The position numbers and the translations under genes are program-made. A stretch of DNA of 64,000 nucleotides from Shewanella aestuarii. Its GTDB lineage: Bacteria > Pseudomonadota > Gammaproteobacteria > Enterobacterales > Shewanellaceae. The stretch is taken from assembly GCF_011765625.1 (NCBI RefSeq), contig NZ_CP050313.1, positions 306,501 to 370,500 on the forward strand. The letters run 5' to 3'. The notes below the pieces were generated by a model. The model was not told the origin of the DNA. It ran no database searches and saw only the letters and a program-made list of their open reading frames with translations. How positions within the stretch are numbered: the stretch's first letter is position 1; every line of letters begins with the position of its first letter. Positions 15,509 through 58,961 of this stretch are shown here, one piece after another.

Positions 15509-15570
15509 ATAATTTTACTTTGTTGAGTATTTGTTAGAATGCACTTGTTTTTATTCACGTTGAGGCAATC

Positions 15571-40934: not shown

Positions 40935-40958
40935 AATATTGCTGAGAGAGCAAAAAAT

Positions 40959-41915: not shown

Positions 41916-43147
41916 GCGTGATAAATAAAATGCTGCAAGACTTAGAAAAGCGCCAACAGTCAGATAGTGCTGACAATAAAGTTGAGCCTGCCAGCTTTGT
42001 TCGGCCTGAACTGCAATTTACTACCAAGGCAAAACCGCCTACAAAATCCCGCTTACCTTGGGTATTGGCCGCGCTAGTTGTGCTTATGGTTTGGTTGGGA
42101 TACAGCTTGTTTGAACAAGCTCAAAATATTCAACCTGTCAGTAAAGTCACGACGGTTAAACAGCCTACAGTAGATGAAACCAACATTGATCCAGTTAAAG
42201 CCGATGCACCCAATGCCAATAGTCAGACCAATCAAAGTCAAACTATTGCAAATACGAGTGTTGAAACAACTGTTCTGGTAGATGGGGCGGTTAACGAGGT
42301 GCAAGTAACAGATAAACAGGTGAGCGACGAACAGCTTACCGACATCGCCTTGGCAGATGCCCCTTCACCAGTTAAGGCACCAGCAATTGCAAGTGCTGAG
42401 TCAGTTTCATTGGCCTCAACTAGGCAAGACCATCCAGAGCAAACACTTGAAAAAGTAGTAAGTTCAGAATCAATTGATAACCCTGCGCCAGTTGCAGCAG
42501 TCACAGTAATTCAGCCTAAGCAAGCTGCACAGCCAGCAAACATGACAGTCACTGAAGTTAACATGACTAAACCCCAATTAGCCCAAGCACAATATCAAAA
42601 GGCGCAAGTGGCAGAAGGGGCTCAGCGCTTAAAAGAGGCCTCTAGTTTATATTTAAACGCCATCATTTTAGACCCCAGTTTGCATGCTGCTCGCAAGCAG
42701 TTAGTGATGATTTACTTTGGCCAAAATAACACCAATACTGCGATTCGATTACTTGAAAGTGGTATTAGCATGTTCCCAGCTTATTGGGAGTTTTATTTAA
42801 TGAAAGCCAATATTGAAAAATCATTGCAAGAATATCAAGACGCATTAATGACACTTAGCTTCATTGAAGATAAGCAACCCTTCGCTAAAGATAAATGGAT
42901 CGCCCAAAGTGAGATAGCCCAGCAAGTTGGTCAGTTTGCTATTGCAGAAAAAGCATACCGATCTTTATTAACACTCGAGTCGACGCAACCTCGTTGGTGG
43001 ATGGGGTTAGGTTATGCGCTAGACTCACAACAACAATATGCTCAAGCCGCCCTCGCTTACCGCTCAGCGTTGCAGTATCCCGGGTTATCGGATACTGCTA
43101 TTACCTTTATTGAGCAAAGATTAGTTCAACTAGGAGAAAGCCAATGA
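41912..43147 (+). CDS. mshN: MSHA biogenesis TPR protein MshN
   Basis: A 411-residue inner-membrane-anchored protein. The N-terminus MSVINKMLQDLEKRQ is shared with GspB/MshN-type partners of MshM. One transmembrane helix lies at about 49-66. A long acidic Val/Ala/Thr/Gln-rich linker (about 70-215) leads to TPR repeats (about 220-405; AEGAQRLKEASSLYLNAIILDP, AEKAYRSLL). The pair MshM-MshN resembles ExeA-ExeB. Overlaps of four bases with mshM and mshE point to one transcript. Confidence 0.88.
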   Translation: MSVINKMLQDLEKRQQSDSADNKVEPASFVRPELQFTTKAKPPTKSRLPWVLAALVVLMVWLGYSLFEQAQNIQPVSKVTTVKQPTVDETNIDPVKADAPNANSQTNQSQTIANTSVETTVLVDGAVNEVQVTDKQVSDEQLTDIALADAPSPVKAPAIASAESVSLASTRQDHPEQTLEKVVSSESIDNPAPVAAVTVIQPKQAAQPANMTVTEVNMTKPQLAQAQYQKAQVAEGAQRLKEASSLYLNAIILDPSLHAARKQLVMIYFGQNNTNTAIRLLESGISMFPAYWEFYLMKANIEKSLQEYQDALMTLSFIEDKQPFAKDKWIAQSEIAQQVGQFAIAEKAYRSLLTLESTQPRWWMGLGYALDSQQQYAQAALAYRSALQYPGLSDTAITFIEQRLVQLGESQ

Positions 43148-44904
43148 AACCTAAATTAAAGATGCGTTTAGGTGATCTTTTAGTTCAGGAACATATTATT
43201 TCTGATGTGCAGTTGCAGCAGGCGCTGTCAGAGCAGCGCAATACCGGTAAAAAGTTAGGCCGAACATTAATCGACCTAAATTGCATTACAGAAACTCAGT
43301 TACTGCAGTTTTTATCCCAGCAGCTTAACTTACCGTTTTTAGATATTAGTCGTCGTCCGATTACTCCTGAAGTGGTCAACCTATTATCAGAAGTGCAAGC
43401 TCGTCGTCATCGAGCATTAGTGGTCGAAAGCCATAGCGATCATGTGTTGGTTGCAATGAGCGATCCCGCCGATTTACAAGCCATCGATACCATAGAAACC
43501 CTTGTGGCGCCAAAACGGTTAGAAATTGCTGTCGCACCAGAGCAGCAATTGCTTGATGCTTTTGACAACTTATATCGCCGTACAGATCAAATTGCTCAGA
43601 TTGCCGGAAAATTAGAAGAAGAATACGCCGCTGACGATATGTTCGACTTGGCCAATTTGACCCAAGGCGACAGTGATAATGAAACCACTGTGGTTAAATT
43701 ATTGCAGTCTATTTTTGAAGATGCGGTACAAATGCGTGCATCTGATATTCACATTGAGCCCGGTGAAAAGGTATTGCGTATTCGTCAGCGTGTGGATGGC
43801 CAATTACATGAAAACACATTGAATGAAGTTAATATTGCATCGGCGCTAGTATTGCGTTTGAAGCTGATGGCGGGCTTGGATATTTCTGAAAAACGTATGC
43901 CGCAAGATGGGCGTTTTCATATGGAAATTAAAGGCCATAAAATAGATGTGCGTATGTCTACCATGCCGATTTATCATGGTGAGTCAGTGGTGATGCGTTT
44001 GTTAGATCAAACCGCAGGCCTACGTACCTTAGATGAAACCGGTATGCCCCCGCATATCGTTGCCCGCATTCGTAAACAAATTAAACGTCCACATGGCATG
44101 TTGCTGGTAACAGGGCCAACAGGTAGCGGTAAAACCACCACCCTTTATGGTATTTTGAGCGAGTTAAACACCGCCGACCGTAAAATTATTACCGTTGAAG
44201 ACCCTGTAGAATATCAATTACCACGCATTAATCAGGTACAAGTTAACCATAAAATTGGTCTAAACTTTTCTAACGTACTGCGTACCACGTTACGACAAGA
44301 TCCCGACATCATCATGGTGGGCGAAATGCGTGACCAAGAAACCGTTGAAATTGGTTTAAGGGGTGCATTAACGGGTCACTTTGTATTATCTACCTTGCAT
44401 ACTAATGATGCGGTCACCAGTGCCCTGCGTTTATTAGACATGGGCGCAGCCAGTTATCTTGTGGCAAGTGCATTACGGGTGATCATTGCCCAGCGACTAG
44501 TGCGCCGTGTTTGTCATAATTGCAGTGTTGATTATCAGTTAACCGCAGCAGACAGTAGCTGGCTTAAAAGTGTTTCTAAGCATGATTTTAGTCAAGCGAC
44601 ATTTAAAGTCGGCACGGGCTGCCAAAGCTGTAATGGTTCAGGCTATCGTGGACGGATTGGTATTTTTGAAATTTTAGAATTAGATGAAAATATGATTGAT
44701 GCGATGCGCACAGGTAACCCACAAGATTTTGCGCGTGCTGCGGTAAAAAGCCCTAATTTTGTACCATTAGCTCACTCTGCCATGGAGTATTTATTTAAGG
44801 GCACAACAACCATTGAGGAAGTGGCTAAACTAGTAGAAGACGTGTCTGAGTCCGTAGTGCCACTTTCACAAGATGTGGTCAGCCAAAATACGCTAGAGAT
44901 GTAA
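43144..44904 (+). CDS. mshE: MSHA pilus extension ATPase MshE, with c-di-GMP-binding N-terminal domain
   Basis: MshE drives pilus polymerisation. The 586-residue protein starts with an MshEN domain (about 1-145) that has two RLG/KLG-type repeats, MRLGDLLVQEHIISDVQL and KKLGRTLIDLNCITETQL, the motif known from Vibrio cholerae MshE to bind c-di-GMP. The GspE-type ATPase follows with Walker A GPTGSGKTTT at about 324, Asp box, Walker B-like RTTLRQDPDIIMVGEMRD, His box, and a zinc site Cys457/460 with Cys493/496. It overlaps mshN by four bases and mshG follows after four. No retraction ATPase gene is in this locus; in Vibrio that role belongs to PilT elsewhere. Confidence 0.95.
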   Translation: MKPKLKMRLGDLLVQEHIISDVQLQQALSEQRNTGKKLGRTLIDLNCITETQLLQFLSQQLNLPFLDISRRPITPEVVNLLSEVQARRHRALVVESHSDHVLVAMSDPADLQAIDTIETLVAPKRLEIAVAPEQQLLDAFDNLYRRTDQIAQIAGKLEEEYAADDMFDLANLTQGDSDNETTVVKLLQSIFEDAVQMRASDIHIEPGEKVLRIRQRVDGQLHENTLNEVNIASALVLRLKLMAGLDISEKRMPQDGRFHMEIKGHKIDVRMSTMPIYHGESVVMRLLDQTAGLRTLDETGMPPHIVARIRKQIKRPHGMLLVTGPTGSGKTTTLYGILSELNTADRKIITVEDPVEYQLPRINQVQVNHKIGLNFSNVLRTTLRQDPDIIMVGEMRDQETVEIGLRGALTGHFVLSTLHTNDAVTSALRLLDMGAASYLVASALRVIIAQRLVRRVCHNCSVDYQLTAADSSWLKSVSKHDFSQATFKVGTGCQSCNGSGYRGRIGIFEILELDENMIDAMRTGNPQDFARAAVKSPNFVPLAHSAMEYLFKGTTTIEEVAKLVEDVSESVVPLSQDVVSQNTLEM

Positions 44905-44908
44905 TCAT

Positions 44909-46123
44909 ATGCCTATTTATCAATATCGAGGTCGAAATGCGCAAGGGCAGCCAGTGTCGGCGCAGCTTGAGTCAGCCAACGAAAGCGCTGCCGCAGATAC
45001 CTTGATGTCGCGCGGCATCATTCCGTTAGAATTAAGGGAAGTTAAACCCCGCAAAGACTTCAATCTAGGGCAATTATTTAGCAGTAAAGTGTCACTCGAA
45101 GAGTTGCAAATTTTTACTCGGCAAATGTATTCGCTAACCCGTTCAGGCATTCCTATTTTGCGGGCAATTGCAGGATTATCTGAAACCACTCATTCAGTCA
45201 GAATGAAACAAGCTTTAGATGATATTTCTACTCAGCTTACCTCTGGTCGACCGCTATCTTCAGCTATGAATCAGCACCAAGATGTATTTGATTCCTTGTT
45301 TGTGTCTATGGTGCATGTTGGTGAAAACACAGGTAAGTTAGAAGATGCCTTTATTCAGCTATCTGGTTACATTGAACGTGAACAAGAGACTCGTCGCCGA
45401 ATCAAATCGGCGATGCGTTATCCCATTTTTGTGTTAATTGCCATCGCCCTTGCCATGGTCATTTTAAACATTGCGGTTATCCCTAAATTTGCTGACATGT
45501 TCTCCCGCTTTGGTGCTGAACTGCCGTGGGCGACAAAATTATTAATTGCGACCTCTAATCTATTTGTTAACTTTTGGCCGCATATGTTGGTTGGCTTACT
45601 TGGCGTATTTATTGGCGTTCGGTATTGGCATCAAAGTGAAAAAGGTGAAAAGCAATGGGATAAATGGAAGTTACATATTCCTGCCGTTGGTTCAATTATT
45701 GAGCGCTCAACCTTATCACGATACTGTCGTAGTTTTTCGATGATGCTTAGCGCTGGCGTGCCAATGACACAAGCACTTAGCTTGGTTGCCGATGCCGTCG
45801 ATAACGCTTATATGCACGATAAAATTGTGAATATGCGTCATGGTATTGAGTCTGGTGAATCAATGCTTAGGGTGTCTAATAGCAGCAAATTGTTTACACC
45901 TTTGGTTTTGCAAATGGTGGCAGTCGGTGAAGAAACCGGCCAAATTGATCAGCTATTAACTGATGCCGCTGATTTTTATGAGGGAGAGGTTGATTACGAT
46001 TTGAAAAACCTCACCGCTAAGCTAGAGCCTATCTTGATAGGCTTTGTGGCGGGTATCGTATTAATTTTAGCTTTAGGCATTTATCTGCCAATGTGGGATA
46101 TGCTCAATGTTGTTAAAGGATAA
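44909..46123 (+). CDS. mshG: MSHA inner-membrane platform protein MshG (PilC/GspF-like)
   Basis: A 404-residue polytopic protein of the GspF family that converts ATPase movement into pilin insertion. The two GspF repeats are clear: LEELQIFTRQMYSLTRSGIPILRAI (in part) in the first and STLSRYCRSFSMMLSAGVPM in the second, each followed by GE-TG turns (VGENTGKLEDAF and VGEETGQIDQLL). Three transmembrane helices lie near 170-190, 220-240 and 375-395. It starts four bases after mshE and ends the tight biogenesis run; mshF follows after about 30 bases. Confidence 0.95.
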   Translation: MPIYQYRGRNAQGQPVSAQLESANESAAADTLMSRGIIPLELREVKPRKDFNLGQLFSSKVSLEELQIFTRQMYSLTRSGIPILRAIAGLSETTHSVRMKQALDDISTQLTSGRPLSSAMNQHQDVFDSLFVSMVHVGENTGKLEDAFIQLSGYIEREQETRRRIKSAMRYPIFVLIAIALAMVILNIAVIPKFADMFSRFGAELPWATKLLIATSNLFVNFWPHMLVGLLGVFIGVRYWHQSEKGEKQWDKWKLHIPAVGSIIERSTLSRYCRSFSMMLSAGVPMTQALSLVADAVDNAYMHDKIVNMRHGIESGESMLRVSNSSKLFTPLVLQMVAVGEETGQIDQLLTDAADFYEGEVDYDLKNLTAKLEPILIGFVAGIVLILALGIYLPMWDMLNVVKG

Positions 46124-46156
46124 AGGCAACATGAATATCAATGGACAGTGCGGGTT

Positions 46157-46759
46157 ATGTTAAGACAGCAAAAAGCCGATGATGATTTATTAAAAGTCTA
46201 TGGTCGCATACTTGCTTTGGTGGTACTGCTGTTGGTGCTAGGTGTTTTAGGGTTCCGTCACTTCAACACTGTTCCTACCCTTGTAGGCCAAAGCTTTGCG
46301 ATGGAGCACAACCGACTACTAAATATTTTAGCCATGGTGAAAAGCCAATGGTTATCCACCGGCAGGCCAGACAAAATATTACTTAATTGGCAAAGTATGG
46401 CACCAAATGTGCTTAAAACTTTAGATGAAGATATCAAAGCCAATAAAAAATCAAATGTGGGTGAAAGCGATACAAATAATGCGGTTAACTTGTCGCGAGA
46501 CTTTGACAGTCAGCTAGCTACAGGTAATTGGATTAGCTTATCTAAGCAAGGCTGGCCAGTTTTAGAAACCCTAGATGTAAAGGGGTGTGAGCGATTGTGG
46601 TATCAATTACTTGTCAGCCCGCTTAAGCAAGTAAATGTGAGTTACGATGCTGAAATTGGCGTGTGTCGATTCATTGCGCCAGACTCTACAACAATTAGTT
46701 ATCAAACAACGTCGGGTAGAGTCATTTTTTTGGCAAACACTCACAATTTAAGTAATTAA
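46157..46759 (+). CDS. mshF: MSHA biogenesis protein MshF
   Basis: A protein of about 200 residues with a single N-terminal transmembrane helix (about 18-38) and a periplasmic domain; it lacks a type III prepilin leader. Position after mshG and before mshB, with the closing part ERLWYQLLVSPLKQVN and CRFIAP, matches MshF of other MSHA clusters, whose function is not known. The start could be GTG 46148 or the ATG at 46157; neither has a strong ribosome-binding site. It is probably the last gene before the pilin-specific promoters. Confidence 0.8.
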   Translation: MLRQQKADDDLLKVYGRILALVVLLLVLGVLGFRHFNTVPTLVGQSFAMEHNRLLNILAMVKSQWLSTGRPDKILLNWQSMAPNVLKTLDEDIKANKKSNVGESDTNNAVNLSRDFDSQLATGNWISLSKQGWPVLETLDVKGCERLWYQLLVSPLKQVNVSYDAEIGVCRFIAPDSTTISYQTTSGRVIFLANTHNLSN

Positions 46760-46879
46760 TATTTTTGCAATATCCATTAAGCTGCTAATATTAGTGAAAA
46801 TCTTGTTAACATTTGTATGGCAATGTAAGCTTGGTTGTAAGGCTAATTTCAGCAATAAGTTATTGGGCAATTTAAGAGT

Positions 46880-47494
46880 ATGCAACTTATGAAATTGAGA
46901 CAAAGTGGTTTTTCGTTAATCGAGCTGGTCATTGTGATAGTGATCCTCGGTTTACTTGCGGCAACAGCTATCCCACGTTTTTTAAATGTGACCGAAGAAG
47001 CTGAAAATGCCAGTGTTGATGGGGTTTCTGGGGGATTATCGACCGCAGTAAGCTTTGTACGTGCACAATGGGAAGTTGACGGTCGTCGTAATAGCTCTGT
47101 TATTTTAGATGGTACCCCAGTTTCACTCGACACTCGTTTTGGCTTCCCTACTGGAGAAACTAATCTGGATGTCACCACGATGACAGATGCGACTTGCCAA
47201 GAAGTATTTAATACCGTACTGCAAAGTGCGCCTCGCAATGTACTATATACAGAAGATGCTAGAAAACAGCGTTATACCGTTAGAGTGCTTGACGGTGTTG
47301 GTGGTGACGCATTAAGCATTACTGGGGCAACCGTTACGGGTATCGATTTGTGTGTTTACCACCAAGTCGCGTCATTGAGTTTGAACCAAACCACAGGTAT
47401 TGCTAATCCTATACCAGCTTTAGATACCGCTGGGGCAAATGGCATTACCTACAACCCAGGCACAGGGCAAGTGCTCTCTTTTACTAACGACTAA
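46880..47494 (+). CDS. mshB: MSHA minor pilin MshB
   Basis: A type IV prepilin of 204 residues. The leader ends in Gly before FSLIELVIVIVILGLLAATA, with Glu5 of the mature protein present, so it needs a prepilin peptidase. A Met four codons in (46889) is an equally likely start. The rest forms a pilin globular domain with two Cys in the middle. In MSHA loci mshB precedes mshA and encodes a minor, probably priming, pilin. A decayed copy lies at 48190-48458. Confidence 0.92.
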   Translation: MQLMKLRQSGFSLIELVIVIVILGLLAATAIPRFLNVTEEAENASVDGVSGGLSTAVSFVRAQWEVDGRRNSSVILDGTPVSLDTRFGFPTGETNLDVTTMTDATCQEVFNTVLQSAPRNVLYTEDARKQRYTVRVLDGVGGDALSITGATVTGIDLCVYHQVASLSLNQTTGIANPIPALDTAGANGITYNPGTGQVLSFTND

Positions 47495-47547
47495 TTCAAT
47501 GATTGGTTAATTAATTAAGTTTTAAATTTAATATCCGAGGTCTGACA

Positions 47548-48060
47548 ATGAAAAAACAACAAGGTTTTACACTAATTGAATTAGTTGTAGTGATTATTAT
47601 TCTAGGTATTTTAGCGGTAACCGCAGCACCTAAGTTTATTAATTTACAAGGTGATGCGCGCGTATCTGCGTTATCGGGTATGAAAGCGGCAATTCAGGGT
47701 GCTAACACATTAGTTTATTCTAAAGCGGCATTAGCTGGAGAAGAGAAAAAAGCTGCTACTGCTACCCCTGCACCTTCTGTGGATATTGGCACAGGAACGC
47801 CAGCGGTGACTCAGTTTGGTTACTTGCAAGCGCTTCAAGCAGAGTTAGAGAATGCAATGGATGTTTCTTTTAATGTAGCAACAGCAGTTAATGACCCAAC
47901 CACAACTGGCACTGAAGACTGGACTATTTTTGTGGACGCTGGTGTGGCTACTATTTGGCAAGCTGGTGCTCCAGCAACTTGCACATTGGTATATACGCAA
48001 GCAGGATCTGCCACAACGCTTCCAACTTATGTTGCAGAAACGGATCCAGATAACTGTTAA
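47548..48060 (+). CDS. mshA: MSHA major pilin MshA, copy 1
   Basis: A 170-residue type IV prepilin with a six-residue leader (MKKQQG) and mature start [18 protein letters not shown], including Glu5. The helix ([26 protein letters not shown]...) is followed by a variable region and a C-terminal Cys pair (PATCTLVY and the last residue Cys170). It lies 53 bases after mshB and has its own terminator. It is the first of four mshA-type genes and is the most likely major subunit by position. The first 325 bases differ from copy 2 at about 17 places by eye; after that the two diverge. Confidence 0.95.
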
Positions 48061-48075
48061 TTAAAAAATAATTTA

Positions 48076-48101
48076 AAAAGCCTGCTTTATGCAGGTTTTT
48101 T
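48076..48101 (+). terminator. Terminator of mshA copy 1
   Basis: AAAAAG-CCTGC, loop TTTAT and GCAGG-TTTTTT. All four mshA copies carry the same stem with different loops. Confidence 0.9.
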
Positions 48102-48189
48102 ATTTTTGCTATATTGTATTGACGTTAAGTAAATGTAAACTCGGTTGTAAGGATAATTTCAGCAATAAGTTATTGGGCAATTTAAGAGT

Positions 48190-48458
48190 ATGCAACTTAT
48201 GAAATTGAGACAAAGTGGTTTTTCGTTAATCGAACTGGTCATTGTAATAGTGATCCTCGGTTTACTTGCAGCAACAGCTATCCCACGTTTTTTTTATGTG
48301 ACCTAAGAAGCTGAAAATGCCAGTGTTGGTGGTGATCATTAAGCTTGAACCAAACCACTGGTATTGCTAATCCAGTACCAGCTTTAGATACCGCTGGGGA
48401 AAATGGCATTACCTACAACCCAGGCACAGGGCAAGTGCTCTCTTTTAATAACGACTAA
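48190..48458 (+). pseudogene. Remnant of a duplicated mshB
   Basis: Nearly identical to mshB at both ends, but with TAA in frame at 48304-48306 (where mshB has GAA) and an internal deletion matching roughly 47020-47370 of mshB. The left end keeps the leader and the hydrophobic helix, so a truncated peptide of about 38 residues with an intact pilin-like N-terminus could still be made. The deletion may have used short repeats such as GTGTTG. It cannot give a working MshB. Confidence 0.93.
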
Positions 48459-48510
48459 TTCAATGATTGGTTAATTAATAAGTTTTAAATTTAATATCCG
48501 AGGTCTGACA

Positions 48511-49023
48511 ATGAAAAAACAACAAGGTTTTACACTAATTGAATTAGTTGTGGTGATTATTATTCTAGGTATTTTAGCGGTAACCGCAGCACCTAAATTT
48601 ATCAATTTACAAGGTGATGCGCGCGTATCTGCATTAGCGGGTATGAAAGCGGCAATTCAGGGTGCTAACACATTAGTTTATTCTAAAGCTGCGATAGCTG
48701 GAGAAGAAAAAAAAGCTGCTACTGCTACCCCTGCGCCTTCTGTGGATATTGGCACAGGAACGCCAGCGGTGACTCAATTTGGTTACCTGCAAGCAAATCA
48801 GGCACAGTTAGAGAATGCAATGGATGTGAAATTTAATACTGTAACAGATTTGGCCGTTAATCCTACTGGGACTGAGGATTGGAATATCTTTGTGGGTACA
48901 TCAGGTGTAGTAACTATATGGCAATCCGGCGCTCCAACAACTTGTTTCCTGTCTTATAAACAGGCTGAATCTTCGTCAATTCTTCCAACTTATGTCGCAG
49001 AAACGGATCCCGATGACTGTTAA
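48511..49023 (+). CDS. MSHA pilin MshA, copy 2
   Basis: A 170-residue prepilin with the same leader, helix and Cys pair as copy 1. The first 110 or so residues are almost the same; the segment from about residue 95 to 160 differs (for example [26 protein letters not shown] against [19 protein letters not shown]), then [11 protein letters not shown] matches again. Leader sequence and ribosome-binding region (GAGGTCTGACA) are identical to copy 1, so it may be expressed equally. It could be an alternative major pilin, a mixed-fibre subunit or a donor for gene conversion. Confidence 0.95.
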
Positions 49024-49037
49024 TTAATTTTTTTTCT

Positions 49038-49064
49038 AAAAGCCTGCTTCATGCAGGTTTTTTT
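49038..49064 (+). terminator. Terminator of mshA copy 2
   Basis: AAAAG-CCTGC, loop TTCAT and GCAGG-TTTTTTT. Confidence 0.9.
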
Positions 49065-49149
49065 ATGTTTGCTATATTGTAATGACATTAAGTAAATTCT
49101 ACTTTTAATGATGTAAAGAGTAGCTGGTCGAATTAATAGGGTGGTATTT

Positions 49150-49674
49150 ATGAAAGCTCAACAAGGCTTTACCTTAATTGAATTGGTTGTGGTGATAATT
49201 ATTTTAGGGATTCTGGCCGTTACTGCTGCCCCCAAATTTATTAACCTTCAAGGCGATGCAAGAGTGTCTGCACTAGCAGGAATGCAGGCTGCACTGAAAG
49301 GTGCTAATTCTCTAGTTTATTCTAAGGCGGCAATCGCAGGTAAAGAAAAAGCTGCTACAGAAACGGTAGATATTGGTGCTGCAAATGATGTAAACATTGA
49401 GTTTGGATATATAAGTGCAGACATTCAATCTTTGGTTGATGCCTTGGGGGCTGAATTTGATGATTTTAATAATCAGACTGGCAATGGAGATTGGCTTATT
49501 GTGCAGTTTGGAACAATACAAGGATCAGCAGCTTCTGTTGCAATTTGGCAGCGAGGTGCCCCTTCCCCATTTGACGGAGAGCCAACTGACTCTTGTGTAT
49601 TGATTTACAAAAGTGCATCAGAAGAGGGTAAACTACCCTCCTATGACATAGAGACAGACCCAAGTAAATGTTAA
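49150..49674 (+). CDS. MSHA pilin MshA, copy 3
   Basis: A prepilin of about 174 residues. The ATG at 49150 ([12 protein letters not shown]...) is preferred to the GTG at 49141. The helix to about residue 65 matches the other copies, although its codons differ more from copies 1, 2 and 4 than those do from each other. The globular region is largely its own: VDIGAANDVNIEFGY, then GNGDWLIVQFGTIQGSAAS. The ending YDIETDPSKC keeps the final Cys. It is an older paralogue in the same array, with its own terminator and no mshB remnant before it. Confidence 0.93.
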   Translation: MKAQQGFTLIELVVVIIILGILAVTAAPKFINLQGDARVSALAGMQAALKGANSLVYSKAAIAGKEKAATETVDIGAANDVNIEFGYISADIQSLVDALGAEFDDFNNQTGNGDWLIVQFGTIQGSAASVAIWQRGAPSPFDGEPTDSCVLIYKSASEEGKLPSYDIETDPSKC

Positions 49675-49703
49675 TAATCATTAGCCAGTCACCTTCACCT
49701 AAG

Positions 49704-49724
49704 CCTGCATCTTGCAGGTTTTTT
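49704..49724 (+). terminator. Terminator of mshA copy 3
   Basis: CCTGCA, loop TCT and TGCAGG, then TTTTTT. Confidence 0.88.
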
Positions 49725-50046
49725 CGTAATTAAGCCCTTATCTGCCACTATTTACAAATAACCTTAGCTAGAAGCTCAGAACAGCTAATTTGTAGCAAAC
49801 ATGATGTTGTTAAATATCTGTTTTAAATATGATTGATACAAACTGATACCGAGTTATGCAAGACAGAAAATTGACTAAGTGAGATAATTGACGCCCTTGT
49901 TAGGTAAAGGTTGTTTATTTAACAAATCTCGCCGTTAAGGATTAACGCGAGAACATTGCTTAGCCACTTACCTTGCTTTACTAAAATGCAGCAAGTTTGG
50001 AAAAAAGCATCCATATTTTATATTGTCGTATCTATAGGTCGTATTT
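49725..50046. promoter_or_regulatory. Spacer before mshA copy 4, with a hairpin
   Basis: About 320 bases without a gene. CTCG-C-CGTTAA, GGA, TTAACG-CGAG at 49928-49951 is a near-perfect hairpin with one bulged base and no T-run. It is unlike the short leaders of copies 1 to 3 and may be a regulator site or RNA structure. No mshB remnant could be recognised here. Confidence 0.5.
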
Positions 50047-50552
50047 ATGCAAAAACAACAAGGTTTCACCTTAATCGAATTAGTTGTGGTGATTATTATT
50101 CTAGGTATTTTAGCGGTTACCGCAGCGCCTAAATTTATCAATTTACAAGGCGATGCACGTGTATCAACCTTGCAAGGTGTAAAGGGGCTATTCAGGGTGC
50201 GAATAGCTTGGTGTACTCTAAAGCGTCATTGGCAGGTAAAGAAAAAGATGCTTCAGAGACAGCCAATATTGGTATCGGTGATGGTGCTGCAACTCCGAGT
50301 ACATCAGTTGCCGTTGTCTATGGTTACTTAGCTGGCACAAGTGCTGCTATTTTGCATGCTACAGATTTATCTGCTGATGAATGGAATATAACGGATACTG
50401 GTGGTGTGGTAACTATTCAGCAAAAAGGTGCACCAGCAACGTGTAATATTAAGTATAATCAAGCGACCGCAACAAGTGTGTCGACTTTCACTTCAGATGC
50501 ACTAGATGAAAATGATGCTCCATTACCTTTTCCAACAGCCGCTAATTGCTAA
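50047..50552 (+). pseudogene. MSHA pilin MshA, copy 4, frameshifted
   Basis: The start [12 protein letters not shown]... and helix to about residue 46 match copies 1 and 2, but the frame then changes. Adding one G to GGGG at 50184-50187 restores [24 protein letters not shown] and gives a 168-residue pilin ending PTAANC, with the usual Cys pair (ATCNIKY and the last Cys). The globular part is unlike the other three. As read it makes a 94-residue hybrid with a nonsense tail. Sequencing error, true decay or slippage in the G-run are all possible. A terminator follows. Confidence 0.9.
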
Positions 50553-50570
50553 GCGGTAATTTAATGATAA

Positions 50571-50594
50571 AAACCTGCATTTGCAGGTTTTTTT
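50571..50594 (+). terminator. Terminator of mshA copy 4
   Basis: AAA-CCTGCA, loop TT and TGCAGG-TTTTTTT. Confidence 0.9.
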
Positions 50595-50746
50595 ATTCTT
50601 AATGACAAGCTTGGCTTGTAGCAGCACAAACTGGCCATTATTTCAGTAGACTTTCAAAGGATATTTGTTAAAGGATATCAAGACGTTTGTGATATATTTT
50701 GCCATACTCTAATAAGATTTTATTGCCAAAGGCATCAATACTCTAG

Positions 50747-51235
50747 ATGAAAAGCTGTCACTCAACCCAAATGCAAAATGGGTTTTCGTTAGTAGAACTT
50801 GTGACCACCATTTTACTGATTGGTATTTTGGCGGTAACAGTGTTGCCGCGGCTTTTTTCTGATTCAAGTTATAGTGCCTATGCGTTACGCAATGAGTTTA
50901 TTGCCGAGCTACGCCAAGGCCAGTTACGCGCCTTAAATAATACCGACCGTTGCTATGATATTAATGTGACTGTTGCGGGTTATCAGTTGCGGCATTACTC
51001 TGCACGTAATGGTAATGCCTGTAGTGGCACGCTGCTGCGAACCGAGCTATTACAAGAGTTTCAAGGTGGTGCTTATGTGAGTTTGCTTGCTGGAGGTAGT
51101 CAAAACTTTACCGTGACCTTTGATAGTTTAGGGCGCTTATTGCAGCCAATTTGCAGTGGAGCGTGTTTTAATATTATTGCCGATGACACCCTAGTGGTTG
51201 CCGTTGAGTCAGAGGGCTATATTCATGCCATGTAA
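50747..51235 (+). CDS. mshC: MSHA minor pilin MshC
   Basis: A 162-residue prepilin with leader MKSCHSTQMQNG and mature start FSLVELVTTILLIGILAVTV. GspH-like features are the segment YALRNEFIAELRQGQLRALNN and two Cys pairs in the globular part. It opens the minor-pilin run mshC-D-O-P-Q, whose genes overlap by 1 to 11 bases. The long leader and a Met nine codons in (MQNG) leave the exact start open. Its 194-base upstream gap follows the terminator of mshA4, so a separate promoter is likely. Confidence 0.92.
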   Translation: MKSCHSTQMQNGFSLVELVTTILLIGILAVTVLPRLFSDSSYSAYALRNEFIAELRQGQLRALNNTDRCYDINVTVAGYQLRHYSARNGNACSGTLLRTELLQEFQGGAYVSLLAGGSQNFTVTFDSLGRLLQPICSGACFNIIADDTLVVAVESEGYIHAM

Positions 51236-51752
51236 GCTTTTAACTCAACCTAGCTGCAAAATAAAGGGCTTTACCTTGATTGAGCTGGTGGTTGGCATGA
51301 TGGTTATTAGTATTGCAATCGTCATGTTAACCTCAATGTTTTTTCCCCAAGCTAATCGTGCGGTTGAGTCGCTACATCGTGTGCGTTCTGCTGAGCTTGC
51401 GCACTCAGTGATGAATGAAATTTGGGGTAAACGTTATGATCAAAATACTAATCCTAATGGCGGCGTACCTGCATGTAATAGTCCGTTAGGCTTGCCTTGC
51501 TCAACTGCATTAGGTCCTAATGGTGAAAGCCGTGACAATTTTAATGATGTTGATGATTATCATGGTCTGGGCATTAATGATTTGATGTTCAACTCCACTC
51601 AAACCTATGCCTCGGTATATCCTAATTTTGACTTAGAAGTGACGGTAGAATACCTCGATGTCACCACTAAGGCGGCCAAGCTCATTACTGTTAACGTCAC
51701 CACTCCAAGTAGCGAAGTGATCACTTACCAAGCGGTAAGGAGTAACTACTAA
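51225..51752 (+). CDS. mshD: MSHA minor pilin MshD
   Basis: A prepilin of about 175 residues, starting at ATG 51225 ([35 protein letters not shown]) and overlapping mshC by 11 bases. The frame is open to 51198, but the inner start fits a leader better. The globular part has GspI/PilV-like features and a Cys pair in PACNSPLGLPC. Minor pilins of this type are thought to form the tip or priming complex together with MshC, MshO and MshP. Confidence 0.9.
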   Translation: MPCKLLTQPSCKIKGFTLIELVVGMMVISIAIVMLTSMFFPQANRAVESLHRVRSAELAHSVMNEIWGKRYDQNTNPNGGVPACNSPLGLPCSTALGPNGESRDNFNDVDDYHGLGINDLMFNSTQTYASVYPNFDLEVTVEYLDVTTKAAKLITVNVTTPSSEVITYQAVRSNY

Positions 51753-52585
51753 TGGCTGCATTATTTCATCGCAAGCGCAAAGGTTTCACTTTAGTTGAAA
51801 TGGTCACCGTTATTCTAATCCTTGGGATTGTAGTGGTGGGTGTTAGCAGTTTTGTGATTTTTGGGACCCGTATTTTTGTTGAGTCGAGTGCAGTCGATCA
51901 GGTGCTCAGCCAAAGCCGATTTGGGGTTGAACGCATCACCCGAGATATTCGTGGCGCCTTACCTAATTCCGCAAGATTATCCACTGCCATTGATGGTAGT
52001 TATCAATGTATTGAATTTGTGCCTATTGCATCCAGTACCAGTTATATTCAGGCGCCAGTAGCGCCGGATCCTGTGGACACTCGAGCAAGTGTGATTAAAA
52101 CCAATCAAGATGTCATCGCAGGACAGTGGGCTTTTGTTTATCCGCTCACCGCAGCAGAAATTTATAATCCAATTGGTACAACCGCTAAACGCTTTGTTAT
52201 TGCTGCTGTAGATGTGGTGGGCGATCAAGTGAATGTAGATTTTAGCCCAGCAATCCGATTTACTGAGCAGTCGCCTTTGAAGCGAATGTTTTTTGCTGAG
52301 CAGCCGATTAGTTATTGTTTTGAAAAAACTGTTGATGGCAGTTCAGTCGATTTAAAACGTTATGCCAATTATGGTTATCAGGTAAGCCAGCCCACTCCCG
52401 CAACTATGGGGAATGGGGTATTAATGGCGCAAAATGTAGTGAATAACTTATTGATTGAACCAGCCATAACGTTAACACCATCAAGTTTGATCACCAATGC
52501 GATGATCCATATTGAACCTCGATTCAGGGTGAATGGTGAAACCTTTAAATATCAGCATCAAGTGCAGGTGATCAATGTCCCTTAA
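51752..52585 (+). CDS. mshO: MSHA minor pilin MshO
   Basis: A 277-residue prepilin, starting in the TAATG overlap with mshD. The leader ends KRKG before FTLVEMVTVILILGIVVVGV; Glu5 is present. The size and the GspJ/PilW-like region (ALDQVLSQSRFGVERITRDIRGALP in part: DQVLSQSRFGVERITRDIRG) fit MshO. A Cys pair appears at YQCIEF and SYCFEK. It overlaps mshP by 11 bases. Confidence 0.9.
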   Translation: MAALFHRKRKGFTLVEMVTVILILGIVVVGVSSFVIFGTRIFVESSAVDQVLSQSRFGVERITRDIRGALPNSARLSTAIDGSYQCIEFVPIASSTSYIQAPVAPDPVDTRASVIKTNQDVIAGQWAFVYPLTAAEIYNPIGTTAKRFVIAAVDVVGDQVNVDFSPAIRFTEQSPLKRMFFAEQPISYCFEKTVDGSSVDLKRYANYGYQVSQPTPATMGNGVLMAQNVVNNLLIEPAITLTPSSLITNAMIHIEPRFRVNGETFKYQHQVQVINVP

Positions 52586-53021
52586 TACAGTGCACTTTCG
52601 TCAGCAGCGCGGCAGCGCATTAGTTATTGGTATATTCGTACTGATAGTCATGTTTTTACTGGCGGCCAGTTTATTACGCATTGTGGAAGATGGTGATGAA
52701 GCCATTTCGATGGAAGTGTGGGGGGCAAGGGCATTGAATAGTGCTAATAGTGGCGCAGATGCGGCATTAGCCCAGTTATTTCCGCTTAATGGCAGTGTGG
52801 GAAATTGCACTAATGTAAGTAGCAGTTGGACGCCACCTGATACGGTTGGGTTTCATGGCTGCAGTGTTGCTATTAGTTGTAACTCAGCATCCGTAGGCGG
52901 CGTGATTCAGTTTAGAATAAACAGCAATGCGGTATGTGAAACCGGTGCTTGTGGCGCGGATGGCAGCACCAATTGTTTGCGAGTGAACCGACAAGTTGAG
53001 GTAGAAGCGCGTGGTGATTAA
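52575..53021 (+). CDS. mshP: MSHA biogenesis protein MshP
   Basis: A 148-residue protein with an N-terminal hydrophobic helix after RQQRGSALVIGIFVLIVMFLLAA, a PilX/GspK-like start in which the usual FTLIE is replaced by SALVI. Several Cys (in GNCTN, GCSV, SCNS, ETGACGADGSTNC) suggest disulfides. In MSHA clusters MshP lies between MshO and the adhesin MshQ and may help bring MshQ to the pilus tip, as PilX does for PilY1; that is inference. It overlaps mshO and mshQ by 11 bases each. Confidence 0.87.
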   Translation: MSLNTVHFRQQRGSALVIGIFVLIVMFLLAASLLRIVEDGDEAISMEVWGARALNSANSGADAALAQLFPLNGSVGNCTNVSSSWTPPDTVGFHGCSVAISCNSASVGGVIQFRINSNAVCETGACGADGSTNCLRVNRQVEVEARGD

Positions 53022-56000
53022 TGTTGTTAAAAAGTGCTCCTTATTATTTATACGAATCTTCAGTATTTTGTTATTTGTGTGCATGCCAATATATAGCGCC
53101 AATGCTGATTGGAGTTCTACTTTTATTGAAGGAGTTAATAATTATAGTCCCTCAGGGACTATTTCGTTGAATACCGCCACAATTACGAATGCGCCAATTA
53201 ATGGCCAACTTCCGACTTATAACTATATTCAAAATGGTGATAGTAAATTTAAAGGTTGTATTTCTACAAATGAGGCTGCTAAAAACTGTAAAGAAGGTAG
53301 ATATGTCTCAATTCTACCAGCAGATAGAATTGAGTTTTCACAATGTGAGTCATCTAGTTCTATCAATGTAAAGCCCCTTTGGGAAGAGACCTCTACAATT
53401 GTTACTGATGGAGAATACAAAGATATTGAACTTGATTTTGGGTCTACTCATACAATCGAGTTCACTTCTGATAATACTTCAGGAGTCTATAAGATAAAAA
53501 GTTTAAATATTGGTTCAGGAAAAATCAAATTGGCTGCAGGGCAGTATTGGATCGAAACTTTATTTTTAAAACATGGTGTAGAGCTTATCTTTCCCGATAC
53601 AGGAATAGTGAGTTTTTTTGTTAAAAATGATTATACTCATTTTAACTTAAGTTTGATTGATAATGCAGATCGCTTCCTTTTATATAACTACGGCAACTTT
53701 ACTTTAAATGATGGGGCAAAGTTAACAGGTCATGTTGTATCTGAGAATAAGGCTGTTATCTCAAGTAGTGCGAATTTAATAGGGGCTCTGACAGGTAAGA
53801 ATATTTTTTTAGAAGGTAATTCAAATGTAACTTTTTCAAATTCCGCTGCCAATATTAATGTTGTACCTAATTGCGATACTTCACCAAAGCCTGTCACGCC
53901 TTTCCATATTCAATACGGTAAAGCCACTTCAACCAATGTTGTATTTGATGCTCCGTTTCCAACAGGCTCCAATCCGTTGATCTTTATAATGCCAACGATT
54001 TCGCAAACCAATACTAACAGCGATGGTCCTGCATCTGCTTTTGTGGTGCCAAACAGTGTGAGTAAAAGCGGCTTTAGTTGGCAGCAGCAAGAACCGCCTT
54101 CCCCAACAAACCGTTATCTTGCCTCAAACACTATGCCAGAGGTGCATTGGATTGCCGTCACAGAGGGGACTCATGATCTGCCAAATGGTTCACAACTTAT
54201 TGCTGGTGCGGTGGATTATAGTCAGGCGTTGTTTGGTTCAAACTCCCCTTACATATCCGTGACCTTGCCTGCAAGTCAAAACGTTGTTTTAAATCAACTG
54301 CAAACTCGCAATAATAATTGTTGGTTTACCAGCACATCGCAGTTTACTTCAACAGGCATTCAATTTGCGTTAGATACTTCGGAGGTCAGAAGTAGTAATA
54401 ATCGCTGCCAACCGGGGAATTTAGCCAATGGTTCAATTCAAAATGAGACCATCGCTTATTTGTCTGTCGCAGCAGGCAGTGGGCCTATGGTGTTAAATGG
54501 CGAAAATACTAATTTTCATTTTGGTAATGCTCAAACCTTTGATTCTGATGGAACATTAGATCTAAGCAGCCAGTGTAATTTTACCACGCCCTTAACAGGC
54601 TTTAGTAATGCACCTGTTTTAGTGGCAGGCAAAACCAGTCGCCGTGGTGATGATGGTGGTTGGTTGCGCCGATGCCAATTGTCCAAAGACCGCGTGAGCA
54701 TGGTGGTTGATGAAGATACCTACGGCAACTCAGAGAGAAGACATTTTCGGGAAAACTATAGCTTTGTCGCCATTGAAAAAGCGGACAGAGTGTTAACTTG
54801 TTTTGCTGATAACTTTGATCGCACTAATGTTGGTGATAATTGGATTGCTGCCAGATCAAGTGGCCAGTTTACGCCTTCGATAGTGGCGAATCGCTTGAAA
54901 TTGACTGAGGCTAAAAATAATCAGGCAACATCAGTAACTTATCAGCGTCTATTCCCTGCTGAAAATAACTTTGTTGAGATAGAGTTCGACCACTTTGCTT
55001 ATGGTGGGAATGGTATAGGTGCTGATGGTATTGCATTTGTGCTGTCGGATGCATCTTTAACACCTCAACCTGGTGCTTTTGGGGGGCCTTTGGGTTATGG
55101 AGTTAAACCGGGGATTAATGGATTTGCTGGCGGTTGGTTAGGTTTTGGTATTGATGAATATGGTAACTATTCTGTTGAAGGTGGACCTGATGGACCTGGC
55201 CGTCGTCCTCAATCTGTTGCGATAAGAGGCTCTGGATCTGGCAGTGATGGTTATCGTTATTTAAAAGGGGCTTGTAACAATGGTACCGATAATACCAATA
55301 GTTGCCTTTCACCAACTATTGATAAAAATAACTCAGGTTCAGTTCATCGTTATCGCATTACCATTGACTCTAAAGTTGTAGGTCAATCTTGGGTAAAAGT
55401 TGAGCGTAATACCGGGGCTGGGTTTATTGATATTATTCCATCATTTGATGCTGCGGCAATTACATCTCAAGTAGCAATCCCTAAAGACTTTCTTTTATCG
55501 TTTACAGGATCTACAGGAGGATTAAATAATAATCATGAAATCGATAACATTGAAATCTGTGCTTTAGATTCAACCCCTGTGGGTGTGGTGATTGATCATT
55601 TCGAGTTTGACCATACTGGTTCAGGCTTAACTTGTAGCGCAGAAACCTTAACCCTCAAAGCTTGCGCTAATGCAGATTGTAGTCAGACAGTGCCCGATTT
55701 TATTACTGCTACCTTAAGCCCTGCCACTGTGACAGGCGGTGGTGGCTGGGTGGGAGGTAACACAGTGAGCTTCAGTGGTGGATCAACAACTGTTGATTTA
55801 CGCCGTAATACCCCAGGTGCGGTTACTGTTGATGTCATTGGTTCAACTCCAGGCGCCAAGCCGTTTAGTACTACCTTGTGTCGTATTGCAGGGGGAGCTG
55901 CGAGCAAAGCTAACTGTACCTTAACTTTTGCTGATAGCGGTTTTGTCTTTGATGTGCCAGATAAACTGGCGAATAAACCACAAACCGATGTGGTGGTTAG

Positions 56001-57639
56001 CGCTGTGCGCAAAGATGATAACAGTCAGCAATGTGTACCAAGTTTTGCTAATGTCAGCAAAAATGTCGCCTTTTGGAGTTCATACGTCAATCCAGTTTCT
56101 TCGGCAATGATTAATCCTCAATCGATGACAGTTAACGCAACCCCAATAGGGCGGTCTATCGCGGCAGCAACGACGATCCCCTTGGCTTTTAATGCTCAAG
56201 GTCAAGCCAATATTAGTGTTAATTATCCTGATGCAGGCCAATTACAGCTAGATGCACAATATACCGGCACGGGGGATGAGCAGGGCTTAGTCATGCAAGG
56301 TAATGATCAATTTGTTAGCTTCCCTGTAGGGTTATGTGTTACCCCAAAAGATAGCAATGGCTTATGTGCAGCGGGTAACAGTAGTTGTAATGTGTACAAA
56401 AAAGCGGGTGAATCCTTTGATTTACTCATTCAAGGTAAAGCATGGCAAGCCGATGGCGACAGTAATTATTGCGACAACAGCAATACGCCAAATTATGTCC
56501 ATGGAGGAATGACTCTTGGAAGTAATCTTGTTGCGCCTTCGGCCAGTGCAGGTGGTGTGCAAGGGGTGATATCTAATACCAGCTATAACCATGTGGCACA
56601 GACGACCAACACCAATACGGTGTCGCAATCCATTAGCGAAGTTGGGGTGTTTACCTTTAGCGCTAAAGCGCCAACAACATATTTAGGGTCAAGCTTTTAT
56701 AATATTCCTTTAGCACGCTCCGCTAACATTGGGCGTTTTGTGCCAGACCGATTTGTGGTTAGTGATGTAAGTGTTATTCCTGCATGTGGATCATTTAGCT
56801 ATATGGATCAAGCTTTTCCTATGGCAATGAAGCTTTCAGCATATAACCTCTTTACCAGCGTAACTCAAAACTATTTTGATGGTTTTGCTAAAGGTAGCGC
56901 TAGTTTAGTGGGTGAAAATAATAATGACGGGGTTGATCTAAGCACTCGCTTATCGAGCTTGCCAGTTAGCTCGGGATCATGGGTAGCAGGGGTCGCTACT
57001 GTGGATGCAAATTATCGAGCCAATTTCTCGCGCATCGCCGCCCCTAGCGTTGATGGTCCATTTGAACAGTTAAGCATTGGTGTGCAGGTTTTTGACAATG
57101 ATGGTAATTTTGCTGGCGTTGCCAATCCTGATATGCGCTCTGATACAGCGGGTGATTGCACGGCATCATCCGGGTGCAATGCAAAAAGAATCACTATTCA
57201 AGATGTTCGCCACGGCAGAGTGATGATGGATAACACCTATGGTCCTGAAAACGAAATCTTACGTATGCCGACATTTGCCCAATATTGGGATGGTAGTAGC
57301 TGGGTTGTTAATCCAAATGATAATTGTACCGTGGTAGCAGCGGCATTAGATGGCAGTGAAGTTTACACACCTGCTAAAACCATGAGTCAAACTGTGATCC
57401 GTAGCAATGGCGGCAATCAAATAGCATCAGGGAAAATGTTGCTACTTTGGCAAAATACAGGGACGAATAATTATCGAGGCCAAGTGAATGCACCCCTGGG
57501 TGTCGATACATGGTTACAATGGTATTGGAACTACGACACTAGCATGCCTAACTTGTTAGTGAATCCACAAGGTAGTGCTTTTTTTGGTCGATATCGCGGC
57601 CATGATAGAGTGATTTATTGGCAAGAGGTTCGCCAATAG
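53011..57639 (+). CDS. mshQ: MSHA adhesin-like protein MshQ with lectin-like and DUF6701 domains
   Basis: A 1542-residue secreted protein, starting at GTG 53011 (or GTG 53014). A signal peptide (about 1-33) is followed by an AT-rich part (about 35-290) predicted as beta-helix-like. Next come two related beta domains (about 295-600, each ending like a VAIEK strand), an L-type-lectin-like region (about 605-850; FDRTNVGDNW, FDHFAYGGNGIGADGIAFVLSD), a short Cys-bearing domain (DHFEFDHTGSGLTC, from about 864) and a DUF6701 region to the C-terminus. The size, lectin fold and position at the end of the pilin genes suggest a tip or surface adhesin. The first 290 residues look less GC-rich than the rest, as if exchanged. 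A terminator follows. Confidence 0.9.
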   Translation: MVINVVKKCSLLFIRIFSILLFVCMPIYSANADWSSTFIEGVNNYSPSGTISLNTATITNAPINGQLPTYNYIQNGDSKFKGCISTNEAAKNCKEGRYVSILPADRIEFSQCESSSSINVKPLWEETSTIVTDGEYKDIELDFGSTHTIEFTSDNTSGVYKIKSLNIGSGKIKLAAGQYWIETLFLKHGVELIFPDTGIVSFFVKNDYTHFNLSLIDNADRFLLYNYGNFTLNDGAKLTGHVVSENKAVISSSANLIGALTGKNIFLEGNSNVTFSNSAANINVVPNCDTSPKPVTPFHIQYGKATSTNVVFDAPFPTGSNPLIFIMPTISQTNTNSDGPASAFVVPNSVSKSGFSWQQQEPPSPTNRYLASNTMPEVHWIAVTEGTHDLPNGSQLIAGAVDYSQALFGSNSPYISVTLPASQNVVLNQLQTRNNNCWFTSTSQFTSTGIQFALDTSEVRSSNNRCQPGNLANGSIQNETIAYLSVAAGSGPMVLNGENTNFHFGNAQTFDSDGTLDLSSQCNFTTPLTGFSNAPVLVAGKTSRRGDDGGWLRRCQLSKDRVSMVVDEDTYGNSERRHFRENYSFVAIEKADRVLTCFADNFDRTNVGDNWIAARSSGQFTPSIVANRLKLTEAKNNQATSVTYQRLFPAENNFVEIEFDHFAYGGNGIGADGIAFVLSDASLTPQPGAFGGPLGYGVKPGINGFAGGWLGFGIDEYGNYSVEGGPDGPGRRPQSVAIRGSGSGSDGYRYLKGACNNGTDNTNSCLSPTIDKNNSGSVHRYRITIDSKVVGQSWVKVERNTGAGFIDIIPSFDAAAITSQVAIPKDFLLSFTGSTGGLNNNHEIDNIEICALDSTPVGVVIDHFEFDHTGSGLTCSAETLTLKACANADCSQTVPDFITATLSPATVTGGGGWVGGNTVSFSGGSTTVDLRRNTPGAVTVDVIGSTPGAKPFSTTLCRIAGGAASKANCTLTFADSGFVFDVPDKLANKPQTDVVVSAVRKDDNSQQCVPSFANVSKNVAFWSSYVNPVSSAMINPQSMTVNATPIGRSIAAATTIPLAFNAQGQANISVNYPDAGQLQLDAQYTGTGDEQGLVMQGNDQFVSFPVGLCVTPKDSNGLCAAGNSSCNVYKKAGESFDLLIQGKAWQADGDSNYCDNSNTPNYVHGGMTLGSNLVAPSASAGGVQGVISNTSYNHVAQTTNTNTVSQSISEVGVFTFSAKAPTTYLGSSFYNIPLARSANIGRFVPDRFVVSDVSVIPACGSFSYMDQAFPMAMKLSAYNLFTSVTQNYFDGFAKGSASLVGENNNDGVDLSTRLSSLPVSSGSWVAGVATVDANYRANFSRIAAPSVDGPFEQLSIGVQVFDNDGNFAGVANPDMRSDTAGDCTASSGCNAKRITIQDVRHGRVMMDNTYGPENEILRMPTFAQYWDGSSWVVNPNDNCTVVAAALDGSEVYTPAKTMSQTVIRSNGGNQIASGKMLLLWQNTGTNNYRGQVNAPLGVDTWLQWYWNYDTSMPNLLVNPQGSAFFGRYRGHDRVIYWQEVRQ

Positions 57640-57668
57640 CGTTTCCTAAATGTTGTTTAAAAGATATT

Positions 57669-57700
57669 CGGTCAGTGCTTAACTGGCCGTTTTTGTTTTT
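57669..57700 (+). terminator. Intrinsic terminator after mshQ
   Basis: CGGTCAG and CTGGCCG (one T-G wobble) with a seven-base loop, then Ts. It separates the msh locus from mreB, whose promoter should lie in 57700-57830. Confidence 0.85.
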
Positions 57701-57830
57701 TATGTAACCTTTTTGCAAAAATATCGTCAGATTAGCAATTGTTAACCCTCTCGGTCTTGTGGAACTGGGGAGTGATTGATAAAGTTAGCTGATTTTTCTT
57801 TTTCTGATACTTTCCTAACAGGCCTGATAA

Positions 57831-58880
<1,050 letters not shown>

Positions 58881-58961
58881 ATCATCTTCATTAGGCGGTG
58901 AAGTTTGCTAGCTCTTGGCCTTTGGCAATTGAGACTATCAGGCTTCGCCGCGTAATTTTTT

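Follow-up and report, generated by a model that had tools for sequence, protein, structure and literature searches.

The closest described relatives of the locus studied here, a row of tandem mshA genes for the major pilin of the mannose-sensitive haemagglutinin (MSHA) pilus in Shewanella aestuarii, are found in several bacteria. The locus lies in a stretch of 64,000 nucleotides (contig NZ_CP050313.1, positions 306,501 to 370,500), called the window below. In Neisseria, partial pilS genes serve the expressed pilE, together with G-quadruplex (G4) and Sma/Cla motifs, and exchange around pilE between Neisseria species is reported as well (PMC4023411). The present locus resembles pilE/pilS in the conserved front and variable C-terminal part of the major pilin and in mosaics formed by recombination (PMC4023411). 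Unlike in Neisseria, the copies here have their 5' ends, G4 motifs with runs of three are absent from the region searched, and exchange is seen between genomes. A further case is the sortase-built pilus of group A Streptococcus. Its subunit genes are exchanged horizontally, giving surface diversity (PMC11078000), but that is another kind of pilus and one species, whereas a type IV pilin with apparent within-gene swaps between species is concerned here. Streptococcus sanguinis has two very similar major pilins, PilE1 and PilE2, which co-polymerise into a heteropolymeric type IV pilus and give a model for mixed filaments (PMC10628169); the genome studied here also encodes more than one major pilin, its copies being more numerous and mosaic, and the experimental case of co-assembly is that of S. 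sanguinis. In Legionella, pilA1 and pilA2 are two related type IV pilin genes at one locus, both predicted to encode major pilins, of which only PilA2 behaved as one, and the abstract gives no mosaic relations (PMC13170364). Divergence of pilA is described in Moraxella (PMC6296526). As for mshA itself, a search for the gene in passages of PMC2536512 and PMC3656152 gave nothing on tandem copies, PMC9100107 gives one mshA in each of two strains, and PMC4376143 concerns another pilin operon and leaves MSHA unmentioned. Among the papers listed by full-text searches, several of which covered the best 10-25 of many and which included few subscription journals, none deals with tandem arrays of mshA or with swaps of mshA 3' parts from one Shewanella species to another. 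This silence is weak evidence of novelty, and pilin gene exchange as such is already known (PMC11078000, PMC4023411).

Compared with the usual MSHA operons, the present locus has three open mshA genes and a frameshifted one, an mshB relic within the array and a junction inside a pilin gene. The neighbourhood is the same as in MSHA operons of Shewanella and Vibrio, i.e. mshE, mshG, mshB, mshA, mshC, mshD and mshO, names assigned here by similarity to the window's own frames. On the whole, the array is real and common in kind, and it fits duplication with exchange between relatives better than it fits a conversion system. We regard it as likely, from the sequence comparisons below, that the mshA position holds a collection of pilin alleles built in that way. 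Of most interest for further work are the swaps of pilin heads across the genus and the junction in copy 4.

Mosaic structure of copies 4, 1 and 2

The initial annotation counted four tandem mshA genes in the window. Four copies do stand between mshB and mshC, three of them open, while the fourth (about 50047-50552) is not one open gene, consisting of a 94-residue frame that overlaps a 114-residue frame. Judged by MshG, the nearest relatives, at 90-91% identity, belong to S. holmiensis, S. subflava and S. aestuarii, and with S. subflava (locus L049) the DNA of the operon genes is identical at 82.9% (mshE), 78.7% (mshG), 74.5% (mshB), 67.0% (mshC, 466 of 489 bases aligned), 75.2% (mshD) and 74.0% (mshO). 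The spacer between copies 3 and 4, however, is 95.7% identical (against mshG, Fisher's test, 3.8e-17), and copy 4 reaches 96.0% over its first 126 bases. Over 50047-50165 eight other copies share 84-91% with S. subflava copy 3, and copy 4 matches it at 115 of 119 bases. From 50,166 onwards the agreement falls to 32/40 and 34/45, which is the level of unrelated copies, and then to 29/59 and 119/220 (49-54%), and this drop inside copy 4 is, on the alignment, a recombination junction. Synonymous divergence (dS) between copy 4 and S. subflava copy 3 is 0.19 in the 5' part, the globular 3' parts share 41% of amino acids, and a joint 3' clade of copy 4 with its counterpart is rejected by the approximately unbiased (AU) test (p = 0.0046). 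Judged by these identities, the spacer and the start of copy 4 form a block that this genome and the S. subflava lineage have come to share recently. It stops within the constant end of copy 4, the kind of trace that homologous recombination is expected to leave in a pilin gene.

Gene order is conserved, copy 3 standing where S. subflava has its copy 2 and copy 4 where it has its copy 3. The stretch 49060-49310, which includes the sequence before copy 3 and the 5' part of that copy, is 92.8% identical to S. subflava in DNA, and the 3' part of copy 3 only 78.4% (Fisher's test against the two flanks, p = 3.7e-6 and 2.6e-11); between copy 3 and S. subflava copy 2 the ratio of nonsynonymous to synonymous divergence (dN/dS) is 0.25 (0.105/0.42). 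The 498-base block of spacer and copy 4 start was searched in 129 genomes, our own included. Among the matches listed, one other genome has the entire block and another has bases 141-497 of it, these two being probably L049 and L061 of the named set, and the remaining matches listed hold the mshA start with at most about 30 extra bases. In Shewanella sp. 10N.286.48.A6 (L061:13322-13558) the spacer is 90.7% identical over 237 bases, at an mshG identity of 76.9%, a likeness that would reflect either a spacer that has moved between genomes or conservation of a control region.

Copies 1 and 2 are, by alignment of 46822-48135 with 48132-49100, a tandem duplication of mshB-mshA in which the second mshB has decayed. 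Its relic between the two copies, overlooked in the initial annotation, has the first 143 and the last 123 bases of mshB at 94-95% identity; it carries an in-frame stop and lacks about 346 bp from its centre. A comparable relic occurs in none of the 43 other multi-copy loci examined (with the window, 44 of 48; the other four have no called mshB), and the other matches of the relic query are stretches of at most 96 bases in mshA, mshC and mshO or weak protein matches to pilin genes. As had been noticed from the beginning, the two mshA copies are alike, then differ, then are alike once more: they are 96% identical over 47516-47815, agree at 125 of 186 aligned sites in 47832-48020, and match again after this variable tract, through [11 protein letters not shown]. 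Along the unit the differences amount to 11/203, 8/176, 12/284, 61/186 (the variable tract) and 15/114 aligned sites, that is, 61/186 inside the tract against 46/777 outside it, where relic, spacer and constant part give a background divergence of about 4-5%. The densest cluster holds 59 differences in 180 aligned sites, and none of 10,000 permutations reaches this value (maximum 40), so that the clustering is not a matter of chance.

An alternative to a recent duplication with import of a 3' part is an old array in which conversion later homogenised the 5' ends, the spacers and the mshB segment but spared the 3' parts. This would give the same pattern in copies 1 and 2, and the unit is indeed evenly 4-5% diverged upstream of the variable tract. 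Such conversion, however, must span a decaying mshB relic that is missing from all 43 other loci, and the closest 5' relatives rarely sit in one array (see below), so we consider it unlikely. Another explanation, plain duplication followed by diversifying selection on the exposed part without any recombination, is in line with the amino-acid changes, which concentrate past residue 95 in the globular part while the helix is nearly invariant. Yet synonymous sites are raised too: dS between copies 1 and 2 is 0.95 in the variable tract and 0.17 in the constant part (synonymous differences, Fisher p = 1.8e-5), and dN/dS in the tract is 0.24. Because of this, stronger selection on protein change alone is insufficient, and the synonymous excess points to recombination rather than selection alone. 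The stepwise fall of identity in copy 4 speaks against selection alone as well, and we hold it to be very improbable.

As to which copy may have received foreign sequence, the N part of copy 1 is 98% alike with copy 2 and shares 76 of 90 residues with P0004, a protein of another Shewanella, while its C part shares 68 of 80 residues with P0004 against 74% of 77 with copy 2. The C part of copy 2 is far from all proteins compared and has a long end branch in the tree, which makes copy 2 the likelier recipient; an imported variable tract would most likely sit there. Two other sources of variation were tried and rejected. For a diversity-generating retroelement, 26 of the 61 mismatches in the variable tract lack an A in either copy; for slipped-strand variation, the sole output of Tandem Repeats Finder is two weak two-copy repeats, one starting at the copy 1 stop codon and one in the spacer between copies 3 and 4.

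mshA genes across the surveyed loci

The survey is based on 80 loci fetched with MshG, including some from Parashewanella, Paraferrimonas, Ferrimonas and Alteromonadaceae. After dropping five that are not bounded downstream, 75 bounded loci remain, the window excluded, and frames shorter than 130 residues were counted apart (in the window, L107 and L108). Overall, 30 loci have one full-length mshA, 33 have two, which is the commonest state, and three, four and five copies are found in 7, 4 and 1 loci respectively. At least three copies are thus present in 12/75 and four or five in 5/75, and the view that a four-member array is exceptional and undescribed has to be given up in its first part and weakened in its claim of novelty, since multi-copy arrays are widespread. 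The largest array of the 80 loci is that of Shewanella marina (L108, about 12740-16426), with five full-length mshA frames and one short frame in a row.

For pairwise comparison we used 68 of 81 loci, the window included, after dropping 11 distant or incomplete ones and two without an mshA frame; mshC is present for 1,891 of the 2,278 locus pairs. Among the 351 pairs of single-copy genomes, the identity of mshG correlates with that of the mshA 5' part at a rho of 0.74, with that of the 3' part at 0.20 in protein and 0.36 in DNA, with mshB at 0.47, and with mshC at 0.535 (276 pairs). Ten of the single-copy pairs have an mshG identity of at least 0.89, and in eight of these ten the mshA 3' part is below 0.61 in amino acids, while mshB does not fall below 0.89 in any of the ten, nor mshC below 0.81 in the eight where it was measured. 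For example, genomes L078 and L114 are 95-100% identical in mshB, mshC and mshG, and their mshA 3' parts share 50% of amino acids, which again is at odds with selection in the absence of recombination. The reverse pattern is found as well: in L065/L124 dS is 0.21 in the 3' part and 0.49 in the 5' part, and L071 and L085 are 91% alike in the 3' part at an mshG identity of 80%. The segment trees conflict, and the AU test rejects four of the five joint clades tested in the 3' part, namely, besides that of copy 4, L051+L053 (p = 0.007), L078+L114 (p = 0.017) and L055+L065 (p = 5e-62). Since single-copy genomes of different species swap their mshA 3' parts, no array is needed for the swapping, and we infer that the donors would mainly be other cells.

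In the arrays, 5' parts were compared for the 106 of 115 copies in 48 multi-copy loci that have the common helix start; copy 1 of L056 entered the copy comparison with a longer, untrimmed start and was excluded from later alignments. The nearest 5' relative lies in the own array for only 10 of the 106 copies. Therefore the arrays are mostly old separate lineages, and general homogenisation within arrays is rejected. The most alike 5' pair is formed by copies 1 and 2 of the window.

These results bear on the mechanism first suggested for the window, a conversion system like pilE/pilS of Neisseria, in which programmed or frequent conversion within the cell overwrites one expressed copy with tracts of its neighbours. 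The constant-variable-constant design of copies 1 and 2 fits such a system, as do several copies side by side, four further pilin genes of the family elsewhere in the genome, and a 5' likeness slightly higher within arrays than between genomes. However, when the genome itself was searched with the copy 1 gene and with the 3' parts of copies 1 and 4, the matches all lay in genes with a prepilin 5' end, with no 5'-truncated copy among them (the 3' part of copy 3 was not searched alone), and G4 motifs with runs of three are absent from both strands of 43,001-54,000, where three weak ones with runs of two occur. Moreover, the nearest 5' relative is seldom in the own array, copies 3 and 4 retain their positional counterparts in S. 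subflava, and the swapping is equally present in single-copy genomes. A system of this kind is thus very unlikely here. What stands of the suggestion is that the mosaic relations are real and require recombination, with tracts shared among the copies.

Several points weigh against duplication and exchange between relatives. Six of the ten close single-copy pairs come from four genomes (L055, L065, L078 and L114), the copy number in L071 is uncertain because its contig ends at the locus, the clades for the AU tests were picked after inspection of the data, and the comparison has no strains of the same species. At third positions of the 5' part the median identity is 0.54 within arrays (79 pairs) and 0.49 between genomes (8,966 pairs), and this slight excess likeness of paralogues leaves room for rare exchange within arrays. 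The spacer may be conserved by function, though its main length is matched in just 3/129 genomes, and in L061 the spacer alone stands out while the mshA start, at 89.6%, does not. In copies 1 and 2, the stretch past the variable tract is also above background (15/114, 13%), and a joint 3' clade of the two is not rejected by the AU test (p = 0.303); for this reason import into copy 2 rests on the synonymous excess, and the comparisons leave it probable, not proven. Among 128 other Shewanella genomes, with four or five candidate stretches scored per genome, there is no near-identical donor for the 3' parts of copies 2 and 4. Finally, the secretin gene mshL of the window is split, which means either that the strain has no MSHA pilus or that the assembly has errors at base runs.

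Integrity and features of the locus

The split mshL consists of two overlapping frames, 39,262-39,972 and 39,948-40,934, divided just past an Asn/Ser-rich stretch, and in 80 of 80 relatives the two parts fall within a single open frame. By eye, the breaks in copy 4 and in mshL both lie in or beside short base runs, which are typical error sites in long-read assemblies. If base-run errors are the cause, the frame break of copy 4 is in doubt as well; the array itself is independent of the mshL question. A decaying locus, i.e. an array drifting in a strain without MSHA pili, would explain the broken frames of copy 4 and mshL together with the mshB relic. Against this, copies 1-3 are open, dN/dS comes to 0.24 when copies 1 and 2 are compared over their variable tract and to 0.25 when copy 3 is compared with its S. 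subflava counterpart, and the two breaks stand in or beside short base runs. We give decay little credence.

The genome has 4.47 Mb in three contigs, and the window lies within the contig of 4.03 Mb (for the features of the array, see Table 1). All four copies have a hit above cut-off to N_methyl (Pfam), the prepilin N-terminal cleavage/methylation motif, that of copy 4 lying in its first frame. Copy 1, the only copy used as query, matches PDB 9lab, the MSHA major pilin MshA, with an E-value of 1.7e-44. The cysteines C145 and C170, which frame the D-region, are invariant in 47 aligned sequences, copies 1-3 of the window among them. Each gene had been credited with a start and a terminator of its own. 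Terminator-like hairpins do follow all four copies, that after copy 3 spotted by eye and the others obtained from the scan, and a ribosome-binding-like sequence is seen by eye ahead of every copy; own promoters, however, are not indicated: the two strands together hold 7 sigma-70-like sites, fewer than the 12.1 expected from shuffled sequence. Rfam gives seven weak matches in 46,700-50,800, none reaching the gathering score, and there is no tRNA in 40,000-60,000.

Four mshA-like pilin genes stand alone elsewhere in the genome (L128:7689-8210, L129:8658-9176, L130:8290-8835 and L131:7345-7863). In the helix part three of them are close and one is more distant, and one lies on a 231-kb contig near metal-efflux-like genes (named by eye). 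In addition, a prepilin-type gene on the minus strand (G000:C1:306419-306496) starts directly before window position 1.

Table 1. Positions of the mshA array and its borders in the window
Feature	Position	Strand	Basis
Intact minor pilin gene mshB, part of the duplicated unit (unit 1, about 46822-48131)	46880..47494	+	frames, similarity, alignment
mshA copy 1, 170 aa; constant 47548-47831, variable 47832-48020, constant 48021-48060	47548..48060	+	
Terminator-like hairpin 3' of copy 1	48074..48102	+	consensus match only
mshB relic	48190..48458	+	alignment to mshB
mshA copy 2, 170 aa; diverges from copy 1 over the variable tract, about 48795-48983	48511..49023	+	
Terminator-like hairpin 3' of copy 2	49038..49062	+	terminator scan
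mshA copy 3, 174 aa; same place as S. subflava copy 2 (80% aa identity)	49150..49674	+	
Non-coding spacer between copies 3 and 4	49675..50046	+	95.7% identity with S. subflava
mshA copy 4, constant 5' part	50047..50165	+	115/119 bases as in S. subflava copy 3
Junction interval in copy 4; frame change in about the same interval	50166..50205	+	identity drop to 32/40
Second open frame, holding 3' part of mshA copy 4	50208..50552	+	
Terminator-like hairpin 3' of copy 4	50569..50592	+	terminator scan
mshC, minor pilin gene, downstream array border	50747..51235	+	

Possible role of the pilin alleles

In type IV pilins the helix of the constant part packs in the filament. The predicted structure of copy 1 (mean predicted local distance difference test score, pLDDT, 93.5) has a long helix up to residue 63 and then a strand-rich head, within which the variable tract falls. 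Alleles with the same helix might thus be exchangeable without spoiling assembly. If duplication and exchange between relatives built the array, DNA of related strains would enter the cell and recombine by homology in the near-invariant 5' end of mshA, where it would either replace the head-coding part or add a tandem copy, so that the array would grow and change as a collection of alleles. A ComEC-type protein is encoded in the genome but proves nothing on natural transformation, because such a protein also occurs in 10 of 14 control genomes, among them E. coli. The least certain step is the function: the open copies may be expressed and serve to build mixed or alternative pili, for use on surfaces that change or as a defence against phages or grazers. 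Judging from the genes, pilin variants could in principle be mixed or switched, and by analogy with the co-polymerising pilins that are described for S. sanguinis, mixed mshA pili are plausible. In its full form, in which mshA is a genus-wide exchange site for pilin heads, with the 5' end as homology anchor, alleles swapped or captured (the mshB fragment being a scar of this) and mixed or alternative pili as the outcome, the proposal is tentative, and we think it somewhat less probable than its opposite.

Marine bacteria use MSHA pili to touch surfaces and to settle on them. If the head of the pilin is exchanged between species and the rest of the operon is not, the pilin type would be a shared, tradable trait, comparable to O-antigen type or flagellin type. 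If this is true, differences between strains in attachment and in phage sensitivity may track the allele they carry and not the species, and the array would offer a testable natural case of filaments made from several major pilins in a Gram-negative bacterium.

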